A stretch of DNA of 64,000 nt, taken from positions 634,621 through 698,620 of the forward strand of contig NZ_JAHYSS010000004.1 of assembly GCF_019802255.1 (NCBI RefSeq). The letters are read 5' to 3'. The stretch is from Pedobacter polysacchareus (GTDB lineage Bacteria; Bacteroidota; Bacteroidia; Sphingobacteriales; Sphingobacteriaceae). Shown here piece by piece: positions 1-2,543 of this stretch (the stretch's first letter is position 1; each line of letters starts with the position of its first letter). The position numbers were made by a program, and so were the translations under genes. A model generated the notes under the pieces. That model was given only the letters and a program-made list of their open reading frames with translations, searched no databases and was not told the origin of the DNA.

Positions 1-206
1 ATTTGACTTATATATCCACACAGGATAAAAAAAGCCCCCATGTACTGCGTCATTCTTATGCGACGAGCCTGTTGAACAGGGGGGCGGACTTAAATGCAAT
101 TAAAGAGTTATTGGGCCATGCCAGCCTGGCTGCAACCCAGGTATACACCCATAACTCTATAGAGAGATTAAAATCAATATATAAACAAGCCCATCCAAAG
201 GCATAA
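1..206 (+). CDS. Tyrosine recombinase (XerC/XerD family), C-terminal part
   Basis: The gene is cut by the window edge and only its last 67 codons are visible. They carry the catalytic end of a phage-integrase-type recombinase: an HxxR motif (H-V-L-R), the LGH motif with the second His, and the Tyr nucleophile in the VYTH motif ten residues later. Such enzymes cleave and rejoin DNA through a 3'-phosphotyrosine. XerC/XerD members resolve chromosome dimers at dif. The position just before hpf and tuf is the usual place for the Bacteroidota xer gene, often with rpsU upstream, which argues for the housekeeping enzyme and not an integrase of a mobile element. The stop lies 14 bases before the hpf ATG, so the two are probably co-transcribed. 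Whether it is XerC or XerD cannot be decided from this fragment. Confidence 0.88.
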
Positions 207-210
207 AAAA

Positions 211-215
211 GGAGG
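211..215 (+). promoter_or_regulatory. Strong Shine-Dalgarno sequence of hpf
   Basis: GGAGG preceded by an A-run (AGGAGG core), five bases before the hpf ATG at 221. Nearly all other genes in this window lack any SD. Bacteroidota ribosomes are known to sequester the anti-SD tail of 16S rRNA with bS21, bS18 and bS6, so a full SD is exceptional and may signal special translational control. Confidence 0.75.
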
Positions 216-220
216 AAACA

Positions 221-568
221 ATGAAAATTACAGTTCAATCGATCCATTTCAATGCAGACCAGAAATTGTTGGAGTTTATTCAGAAGAAAACAGATAAGTT
301 AGATCAGTACTTCGACCAGATTATTAGTGGGGAGGTTTATTTAAAATTAGAAAACGTAGACGATGAAGCAAACAAGATAAGTGAAATCAAACTGATGGTT
401 CCAGGAGTTACGATGTTCGCAAAGGAACAATGTAAATCTTTTGAGGAGGCTACAGATTTGGCAATTGAGTCCCTGAGGAAACAAATTACTAAACACAAAG
501 ATAAAACTCGAGAAAAATTAAGCGAACATAAAGCAATTTTAAATGCCAACGAAGTATCTGATTATTAG
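221..568 (+). CDS. hpf: Ribosome hibernation promoting factor, short form (HPF/YfiA family)
   Basis: A protein of 115 residues with the S30AE/sigma-54 modulation fold: the N-terminal MKITVQSIHFNAD strand, a central EVYLKLEN segment, and the C-terminal basic helix. This is the short form without the extended dimerisation domain. The family binds the 30S A and P sites in slow growth and inactivates 70S ribosomes. The ATG is fixed by the SD at 211-215. It follows the recombinase by 14 bases and ends just before a strong terminator at 601-631, so the recombinase-hpf transcript ends there. The combination of a hibernation factor with an intact SD is unusual in this phylum. Confidence 0.93.
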   Translation: MKITVQSIHFNADQKLLEFIQKKTDKLDQYFDQIISGEVYLKLENVDDEANKISEIKLMVPGVTMFAKEQCKSFEEATDLAIESLRKQITKHKDKTREKLSEHKAILNANEVSDY

Positions 569-600: not shown

Positions 601-631
601 TGGCAGGATGAAGTCCTGCCATTTTTTTTTT
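601..631 (+). terminator. Rho-independent terminator after hpf
   Basis: Perfect 8-bp stem (TGGCAGGA with TCCTGCCA), five-base loop TGAAG, then a run of about ten T. It closes the recombinase-hpf transcript before the tRNA cluster. Between 632 and 775 I see no gene. Confidence 0.9.
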
Positions 632-1355: not shown

Positions 1356-2543
1356 ATGGCAAAAGAAAAGTTTGACCGCAGCAAGCCGCACTTAAACATC
1401 GGCACAATCGGTCACGTTGACCACGGTAAAACAACCTTAACAGCAGCTATCACTAAAGTGTTATCTGATGCTGGTTTATCTGAGGCGCGTTCATTTGATT
1501 CTATTGACTCTGCTCCAGAGGAAAAAGAAAGAGGTATCACTATCAATACAGCACACGTTGAGTATTCAACAGCTAACCGTCACTATGCACACGTTGACTG
1601 TCCAGGTCACGCGGATTATGTAAAGAACATGGTTACTGGTGCTGCACAAATGGATGGAGCTATCATCGTTGTAGCTGCTACAGATGGTCCAATGCCACAA
1701 ACTCGTGAGCACATTCTATTGGCTCGTCAGGTTGGTGTTCCTTCATTGGTAGTATTCATGAATAAAGTGGATATGGTTGACGATCCTGAATTACTAGAAT
1801 TAGTAGAGATGGAAGTTCGTGAATTGTTATCTTTCTATGAATTCCCTGGTGATGATATCCCTGTAATTCAAGGTTCGGCTCTTGGTGGCTTGAACGGAGA
1901 TCCTACTTGGGTTGCTAAAATCATGGAATTAATGGATGCTGTAGATAGCTACATTCCAATCCCTCCACGTTTAACTGACCTTCCATTCTTAATGCCTGTT
2001 GAAGATGTATTCTCGATCACTGGTCGTGGTACTGTAGCAACTGGTCGTATTGAGCGTGGTGTAATCAACTCTGGAGATCCAGTTGAGATCTTAGGTATGG
2101 GTGCTGAAAATCTTAAATCAACTGTAACAGGTGTTGAGATGTTCCGTAAGATCCTTGATTATGGTGAAGCAGGTGATAACGTAGGTCTATTGTTACGTGG
2201 TATTGAGAAAACTGATATCCGTCGTGGTATGGTAATCTGTAAACCAGGTTCAGTAACTCCTCACACAGATTTCAAAGCTGAGATCTATGTATTATCAAAA
2301 GCAGAAGGTGGACGTCACACTCCATTCTTTAACAAATACCGTCCACAATTCTATTTCCGTACCACAGACGTTACAGGTGAAATCACCTTAGTTGAAGGAA
2401 CTGAAATGGTAATGCCAGGTGATAACGTAACTATCAATGTTAAATTGATCAACGCAATCGCAATGGAAAAAGGTCTACGTTTCGCAATCCGTGAGGGTGG
2501 TAGAACAGTAGGTGCTGGTCAGGTAACTGAAATTGTAAAGTAA
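1356..2543 (+). CDS. tuf: Translation elongation factor Tu
   Basis: EF-Tu of 395 residues carries aminoacyl-tRNA to the ribosomal A site as a GTP complex. The G-domain motifs are all present: GHVDHGKT (P-loop, about residues 18-25), the RGITI switch I segment, DCPGH (switch II), and NKVD. Domains 2 and 3 follow, ending in the typical VGAGQVTEI tail. The ATG has no SD but an A-rich leader, normal for the phylum. Placing tuf between tRNA genes and trnW-secE-nusG is the standard Bacteroidota arrangement. Codon use is strongly biased, as expected for one of the most abundant proteins. Confidence 0.98.

Follow-up and report, generated by a model that had tools for sequence, protein, structure and literature searches.

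The gene for hibernation promoting factor (hpf) in this Pedobacter genome is preceded by a Shine-Dalgarno (SD) sequence that, as judged from its retention against neutral divergence, is under selection in Sphingobacteriaceae and is not a chance match in that family. Our best reading of the comparisons described below is that hpf is one of the few Bacteroidia genes whose translation is started through real pairing between an SD and the anti-SD (ASD) of 16S rRNA. By the same comparisons, the hpf SD is independent of the SDs of rpsU (which encodes bS21) and rpsR (bS18), and does not simply accompany rpsU control. It could well be, though we stop short of calling it probable, that this SD is functional and is used best by 30S subunits whose 16S tail lies exposed, hpf being a trans target of such subunits independently of rpsU.

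The window, by which we mean the whole stretch of 64,000 nucleotides that was analysed, begins at the hpf locus, where we distinguish the following features:

3..206, + strand: 3' end of xer, a tyrosine recombinase gene (Pfam Phage_integrase, E 1.6e-14); the window opens inside it
208..215, + strand: SD helix AAAGGAGG, complementary to CCUCCUUU in the 16S tail of this genome (-10.4 kcal/mol)
211..215, + strand: GGAGG core of the hpf SD, read directly as gcataaaaaa GGAGG aaaca ATG
221..568, + strand: hpf, hibernation promoting factor, 115 aa (Pfam Ribosomal_S30AE, E 3.9e-21)
601..631, + strand: terminator-like hairpin and T10 3' of hpf, TGGCAGGA-TGAAG-TCCTGCCA, read directly
1356..2543, + strand: tuf (EF-Tu), the SD-less control gene at the hpf locus

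The complete xer gene is found at L002 5904-6827, and its stop codon (TAA at 204-206) is followed by a 14-base gap, read as AAAAGGAGGAAACA, before the hpf ATG at 221. At this locus rpsU is followed by xer, hpf, four tRNA genes and tuf; the rpsU ATG lies at C14:633609, about 1.2 kb upstream of hpf, and this is the single rpsU match in the genome. The closest relatives are Pedobacter (Sphingobacteriaceae), and the best named match to the hpf protein is from Pedobacter sp. N36a (100%). By Pfam, the product belongs to the short HPF/YfiA proteins (S30AE family): a single Pfam family (S30AE) covers residues 3-96, and there is no C-terminal dimerisation domain. At the hairpin 3' of hpf, the terminator scan reports the opposite strand only.

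Strength and conservation of the hpf SD

The 16S rRNA of this genome has the tail GGAAUACCUCCUUUCU. Bases 208-215 form 8 contiguous bp with it at -10.4 kcal/mol, and the rpsU SD forms 12 bp (two of them G-U) at -16.6 kcal/mol; these two energies are nearest-neighbour values with helix initiation, and energies below are likewise in kcal/mol. An earlier sequence-only reading had placed GGAGG five bases 5' of the hpf ATG, and direct reading (211-215, ATG 221) bears this out. It had also expected the order rpsU-xer-hpf and a strong SD before rpsU, both of which we found in the genome upstream of the window, the rpsU SD being extended (-16.6). Its description of the hpf SD as perfect is correct for the GGAGG core but not for the full tail, with which hpf pairs over 8 bp as against 12 for rpsU.

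We ranked SDs among 754 ORFs in 870,660 bases of the genome (some 15% of the whole, made up of the window, the stretch upstream of it and 40 others of 20 kb each). ORFs were called from the first ATG in this genome and in the two others ranked below (G353 and G352), and some top ranks could be false starts. The hpf SD is 7th of the 754, which places it in the top 1% without making it unique; a smaller ORF sample had ranked it 2nd of 352, and we use the figure from the larger sample. The SD of rpsU ranks 1st and that of rpsR 3rd (-12.2), the 4th and 5th belong to genes for a 4Fe-4S protein and a rhamnose mutarotase, and ranks 2 and 6 are ORFs without a Pfam match. At -10 or stronger, matches were found in the SD region of 8/754 ORFs and in a mock region further upstream of 0/754. 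At -10.4, hpf thus lies within the strong-SD range of Bacteroidia (-7 or stronger) but outside the rpsU class (< -13), a strength that 2 of 77 Pedobacter-set loci reach, and it is not the strongest SD of its genome. The 4Fe-4S protein gene (Pfam Fer4; L316 5187-5687, on C1 of this genome) has the SD AAAAGGAGGT, which at -12.1 matches rpsR in strength; we take its product to be NuoI-like. A TM2-domain protein gene (L202 6584-6943, also on C1) has the SD AAGGAGG (-9.5).

The only sample in which hpf ranked first was one of 400 kb from G353 (family f33), where it has the strongest SD of the 317 called ORFs. There, the SD region gave 7 matches and the mock region 18 at -5, and 1 and 2 matches, respectively, at -10 (n=317). 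In G352 (family f32) the hpf SD is third of 333 ORFs, with 4 SD matches and 2 mock matches at -10. Because mock sites of like strength occur in both genomes, rank alone is weak evidence there.

Conservation was examined in a Pedobacter set of 80 loci, all from genomes with a name and almost all from Pedobacter, in which hpf was measured in 77 (all except L118, L120 and L143) and certain values for rpsU, xer, tuf, secE and nusG are absent. The hpf SD is -10.1 or stronger in 77/77 loci and the rpsU SD is below -13 in 71/71; the neighbouring genes reach -7 in 1/76 (xer), 0/72 (tuf), 0/72 (secE) and 0/69 (nusG). In the family as a whole, hpf was found in 141 of 151 genomes (the 10 without a match are in no count), and 44 of the 141 were measured. 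An hpf SD is present in 43 of these 44, the exception being G056, and mock sites gave 0/44; with one genome per genus, an hpf SD of -7 or stronger is present in 20/21. Absence of the SD from close relatives had been set beforehand as one of two refutations of the sequence-only reading, and what we found in both samples (77/77 and 43/44) is its presence.

The GGAGG itself is retained in 77/77 loci of the Pedobacter set, 42/44 family genomes and 19/21 genera. Pairwise identity at the fourfold sites of hpf is 0.393 in the Pedobacter set and 0.316 with one genome per genus, where random letters would give 0.310 and 0.293, respectively. These sites are near saturation and yet GGAGG is retained, which argues that the SD has been kept in the family by selection and not by descent alone. 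A shifted helix, AGAAAGGAG (-11.6), is found in G023 and G244, the first of which has lost GGAGG, and it therefore seems to be the pairing, rather than a single word, that is conserved before hpf. The record L174, titled 'Flavobacteriaceae bacterium PS02338', has a Pedobacter-type hpf locus, and its title may be mislabelled; second, divergent HPF-like genes occur in G270, G236, G012 and certain other genomes.

Distribution across Bacteroidia

Our sample of the class covers 66 further families by one or a few genomes each and is not random. Sixteen of the 296 class genomes gave no match to hpf and were left uncounted, and three loci whose start could not be placed (L295, L300 and L303) were dropped. 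Energies for the 44 family genomes, the class sample, the shifted helix, the follow-up genomes and the rpsR comparison were computed with the general tail CACCUCCUUUCU; the tail of the family is AUACCUCCUUUCU. Outside the family, an hpf SD of -7 or stronger is present in 23/84 genomes and 18/66 families and is missing in 61/84 genomes. At the same threshold, mock sites gave 4/84 (one of them below -13), xer 2/66 and tuf 0/51, and when SDs were contrasted within genomes, 21 had one before hpf only and 2 before xer only.

Follow-up genomes from families picked for having an hpf SD gave 19/30, which is not an unbiased rate. The SD is present in 7/8 genomes of f32 and 4/4 of f55 (-10.3 to -12.5), and rpsU is SD-less in all 11 of these hpf-SD genomes. 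Family f33 is mixed, with an hpf SD in 5 of the 12 genomes examined and none in the other 7. The distribution over the class is patchy, the fewest changes being 13 on the best tree, of which 4 are forced by starred branches. This tree, with 80 genomes (every third family row), 24 of 77 forks open and two family rows split from the rest, was used to assess patchiness only, not gain or loss.

The 16S end was found in 7 of 22 genomes searched outside the family; all 7 are hpf-SD genomes, and all have the canonical CCUCC. In G454 the sole match was unlike a 16S end. In the 13 genomes of the family whose 16S end could be read the tail is GGAAUACC, and in genomes of f32, f20 and f59 it is GGAACACC. 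The SDs of Pedobacter rpsU extend as GGAGGUAU or GGGGGUAU, following the family's own tail. Looking for covariation between the hpf SD and an altered ASD, we also searched 396 class genomes for tails lacking the first C of the core. There were matches in 22, mostly at scattered, chance-like sites, and the only real-looking altered 16S ends were those of G374 (f28, UCUCA) and G422 (f68, UCUCC, in three copies); the hpf genes of G422 and of an f28 genome other than G374 have no SD.

Relation to rpsU and rpsR

With rpsU scored at -9, genomes outside the family divide into 1 with both SDs, 19 with the hpf SD only, 7 with the rpsU SD only and 36 with neither (Fisher p 0.42); the independent pairs that the tree offers for this association are too few. 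None of the 7 outside-family genomes in which the rpsU SD reaches -13 (families f5, f15 and f52) has an hpf SD. Within the family, rpsU is weaker than -13 in 6/39 genomes, and all 6 retain the hpf SD (-8.6 to -11.6). Four of these 6 (genera g13 and g18) have one changed base in the rpsU core, which reads GGTGG or GGCGG. We considered whether these variants reflect covariation with the ASD and rejected this for GGTGG (g18), because 10/10 readable 16S ends of g18 (from 12 genomes searched) are CCUCC; no tail was found for G012 (g13), G010 or G023. On the evidence of these ends, GGTGG and GGCGG are mismatches in rpsU.

We located rpsR in 30 genomes and placed its start in 28 (G392 and G205 were dropped). 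Both rpsU and rpsR are weaker than -7 in 11 of 19 outside-family hpf-SD genomes, with rpsU unlocated in 2 more; 11/19 is not an unbiased rate, since the genomes for rpsR were chosen with the SD families in view.

The rpsU promoter (TTTG, 18 bases, TATCTTTG) agrees with the Bacteroidota-type consensus without a mismatch; the 19-kb stretch holds 4 such perfect matches on its forward strand. Behind rpsU lies a terminator-like hairpin with a stem of 14 pairs. As rpsU appears to have its own promoter and terminator, hpf is probably not on the rpsU transcript; in Flavobacterium johnsoniae, too, rpsU is a separate transcript (McNutt et al., 2023, PMC9976891). The leaders of both hpf and rpsU have weak folds.

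The sequence-only reading had proposed that hpf shares the control of rpsU. In its simple form this proposal finds no support, as the two SDs are not associated outside the family, rpsU has a separate transcript by its promoter and terminator, and the SD of hpf falls short of the < -13 class. It had also called for a comparison of hpf SDs across the phylum; in the class as sampled here, the SD recurs in 23/84 genomes outside the family and shows no association there with the rpsU SD.

Exposed 16S tails and competing explanations

In F. johnsoniae bS21, bS18 and bS6 hide the 16S tail, and ribosomes lacking bS21 or its C-terminus favour rpsU mRNA and perform worse on SD-less mRNAs (PMC9976891). 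Genes for bS21 with an SD of < -13 kcal/mol are described as autoregulated, this class being called necessary for rpsU-type control (PMC9976891). A tuf reporter given the SD AGGAGGU increased by 40% and 70% in a bS21-depletion strain with and without inducer, respectively, by 70% with bS21 Y54A and by >2-fold with a C-terminal deletion of bS21 (PMC9976891). We computed -10.3 for this SD, which is about the strength of that of hpf (-10.4), and because the reporter responded to loss of bS21, an SD of hpf strength can respond.

The SDs of rpsR in Bacteroidales, Cytophagales and Sphingobacteriales range from -7 to -14 with a mode of -11, and autoregulation has been proposed (PMC9976891, citing Jha et al., 2021). 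Within Flavobacteriales, rpsU is reported as apparently the only gene under SD-dependent control; the whole-genome screen described there covered that order, and a screen of ribosomal protein genes is described for the rest of the class (PMC9976891). In the literature that we searched, no account of an SD before hpf in this phylum turned up, and 'hpf' does not occur in the papers on SDs in this phylum whose text we searched, though a supplementary table may hold an entry.

Like rpsU of F. johnsoniae (PMC9976891), hpf has its SD near the start codon, in a class that avoids SDs and hides the ASD, but its SD is weaker (-10.4), and it encodes a factor that acts on ribosomes and not the missing protein itself. 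The hpf SD also differs in occurring where rpsU has no SD. The SDs of rpsR and hpf have a like energy range, and the rpsR SD is also found in this genome (-12.2); bS18 is part of the pocket that holds the 16S tail, whereas HPF is not known to be. In the accounts of other bacteria available to us, control of hibernation genes is transcriptional, leader-based or CsrA-based (CodY in Staphylococcus aureus; the lrtA leader; E. coli, PMC10746276), not by exposure of the ASD.

The tyrosine Y54 of bS21, which lies in the 16S-tail pocket, is present in 58/58 hpf-SD genomes whose bS21 could be read, as well as in 37/44 others; these are related genomes, so that we attach no probability to the counts, and the 30 follow-up genomes among them were chosen with the SD families in view. 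From the conservation of Y54, we infer that complete ribosomes hide the 16S tail in hpf-SD genomes. The hpf SD would then pair with the tail when it is exposed, and its best users would be 30S subunits that have lost, or only loosely hold, bS21, bS18 or both; such subunits, which may well favour hpf, might build up through a shortage of bS21 or bS18, late in assembly or by wear in stationary phase. As they accumulate, the output of HPF would rise relative to that of SD-less mRNAs, and HPF would then silence part of the ribosome pool. Under this scheme the exposed-tail ribosomes behind rpsU autoregulation would also act on hpf, as a target in trans and not as a gene tied to rpsU.

The main rival is an ordinary enhancer of initiation, used constitutively by complete ribosomes whose tail is occasionally freed, so that HPF would be made steadily and nothing would be sensed. 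We consider this somewhat doubtful. Wild-type F. johnsoniae ribosomes do form unusually stable complexes on rpsU mRNA (PMC9976891), and in G352 two genes read as uL5 and uL23 (L422 16534-17088 and L423 1015-1308) also have SDs (-9.7 and -9.5), which indicates that SDs in that genome are not reserved for sensors of bS21 and bS18. However, addition of AGGAGGU to tuf lowered GFP somewhat in wild-type F. johnsoniae and so was not obviously enhancing on complete ribosomes, and SDs are rarer than mock sites in that genome (PMC9976891), as they are in G353 at -5 (7 vs 18).

Translational coupling, in which ribosomes that finish xer linger near its stop codon and are held by the SD for reinitiation at hpf, appears improbable. 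It would suit the spacing of the genes, which is 12-20 bases in 40/44 family genomes, and the absence of a Bacteroidota-type promoter (at most 1 mismatch) from the 250 bases before hpf in 76/76 Pedobacter-set loci, which makes it probable that hpf shares the transcript of xer. The SD is nevertheless retained where the gap is 86 or 97 bases in the family (G042 and G124) and 31-117 bases in six genomes outside it, and 15 of 45 SD-less outside-family genomes have a gap of 10-15 bases.

That the GGA-rich site is instead bound by an RNA-binding protein of the CsrA type that blocks hpf translation is very unlikely: CsrA binds GGA motifs in leaders, and the hibernation genes of E. coli have been studied for CsrA control, but hpf fusions were unaffected by CsrA in the E. 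coli experiments available to us (PMC10746276), and our search found CsrA in 0/20 genomes as against 3/14 controls; a different protein might bind there. Least credible is chance, or an inherited sequence without function, which a short, purine-rich spacer and a patchy distribution (13 changes at minimum, 4 forced) might suggest but which, given GGAGG in 77/77 and 42/44 at near-random neutral divergence and mock sites in 0/44, we regard as refuted, at the level of sequence, within the family and as possible for scattered single genomes outside it.

Against preferential use of the hpf SD by exposed-tail 30S subunits count its energy (-10.4, short of the < -13 class), its lack of association with the rpsU SD outside the family, the 61/84 outside-family genomes and 7/12 f33 genomes without it, and the presence in this genome of other strong-SD genes, for the 4Fe-4S protein and rhamnose mutarotase, with no evident link to ribosomes. 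A broader version, which we regard as unlikely, is that specialised ribosomes act in trans on hpf throughout Bacteroidia, these being 30S subunits without bS21, bS18 or both that would initiate badly on SD-less mRNAs and well on hpf, such that incompleteness of the ribosome would switch on hibernation independently of bS21 autoregulation, and that hpf is the main such gene in several families.

A selected SD before hpf in lineages other than Flavobacteriales would extend this type of control beyond the genes for ribosomal proteins and would connect the condition of the 30S platform with hibernation. The comparisons suggest a possible role for a special class of ribosomes in the timing of hibernation.
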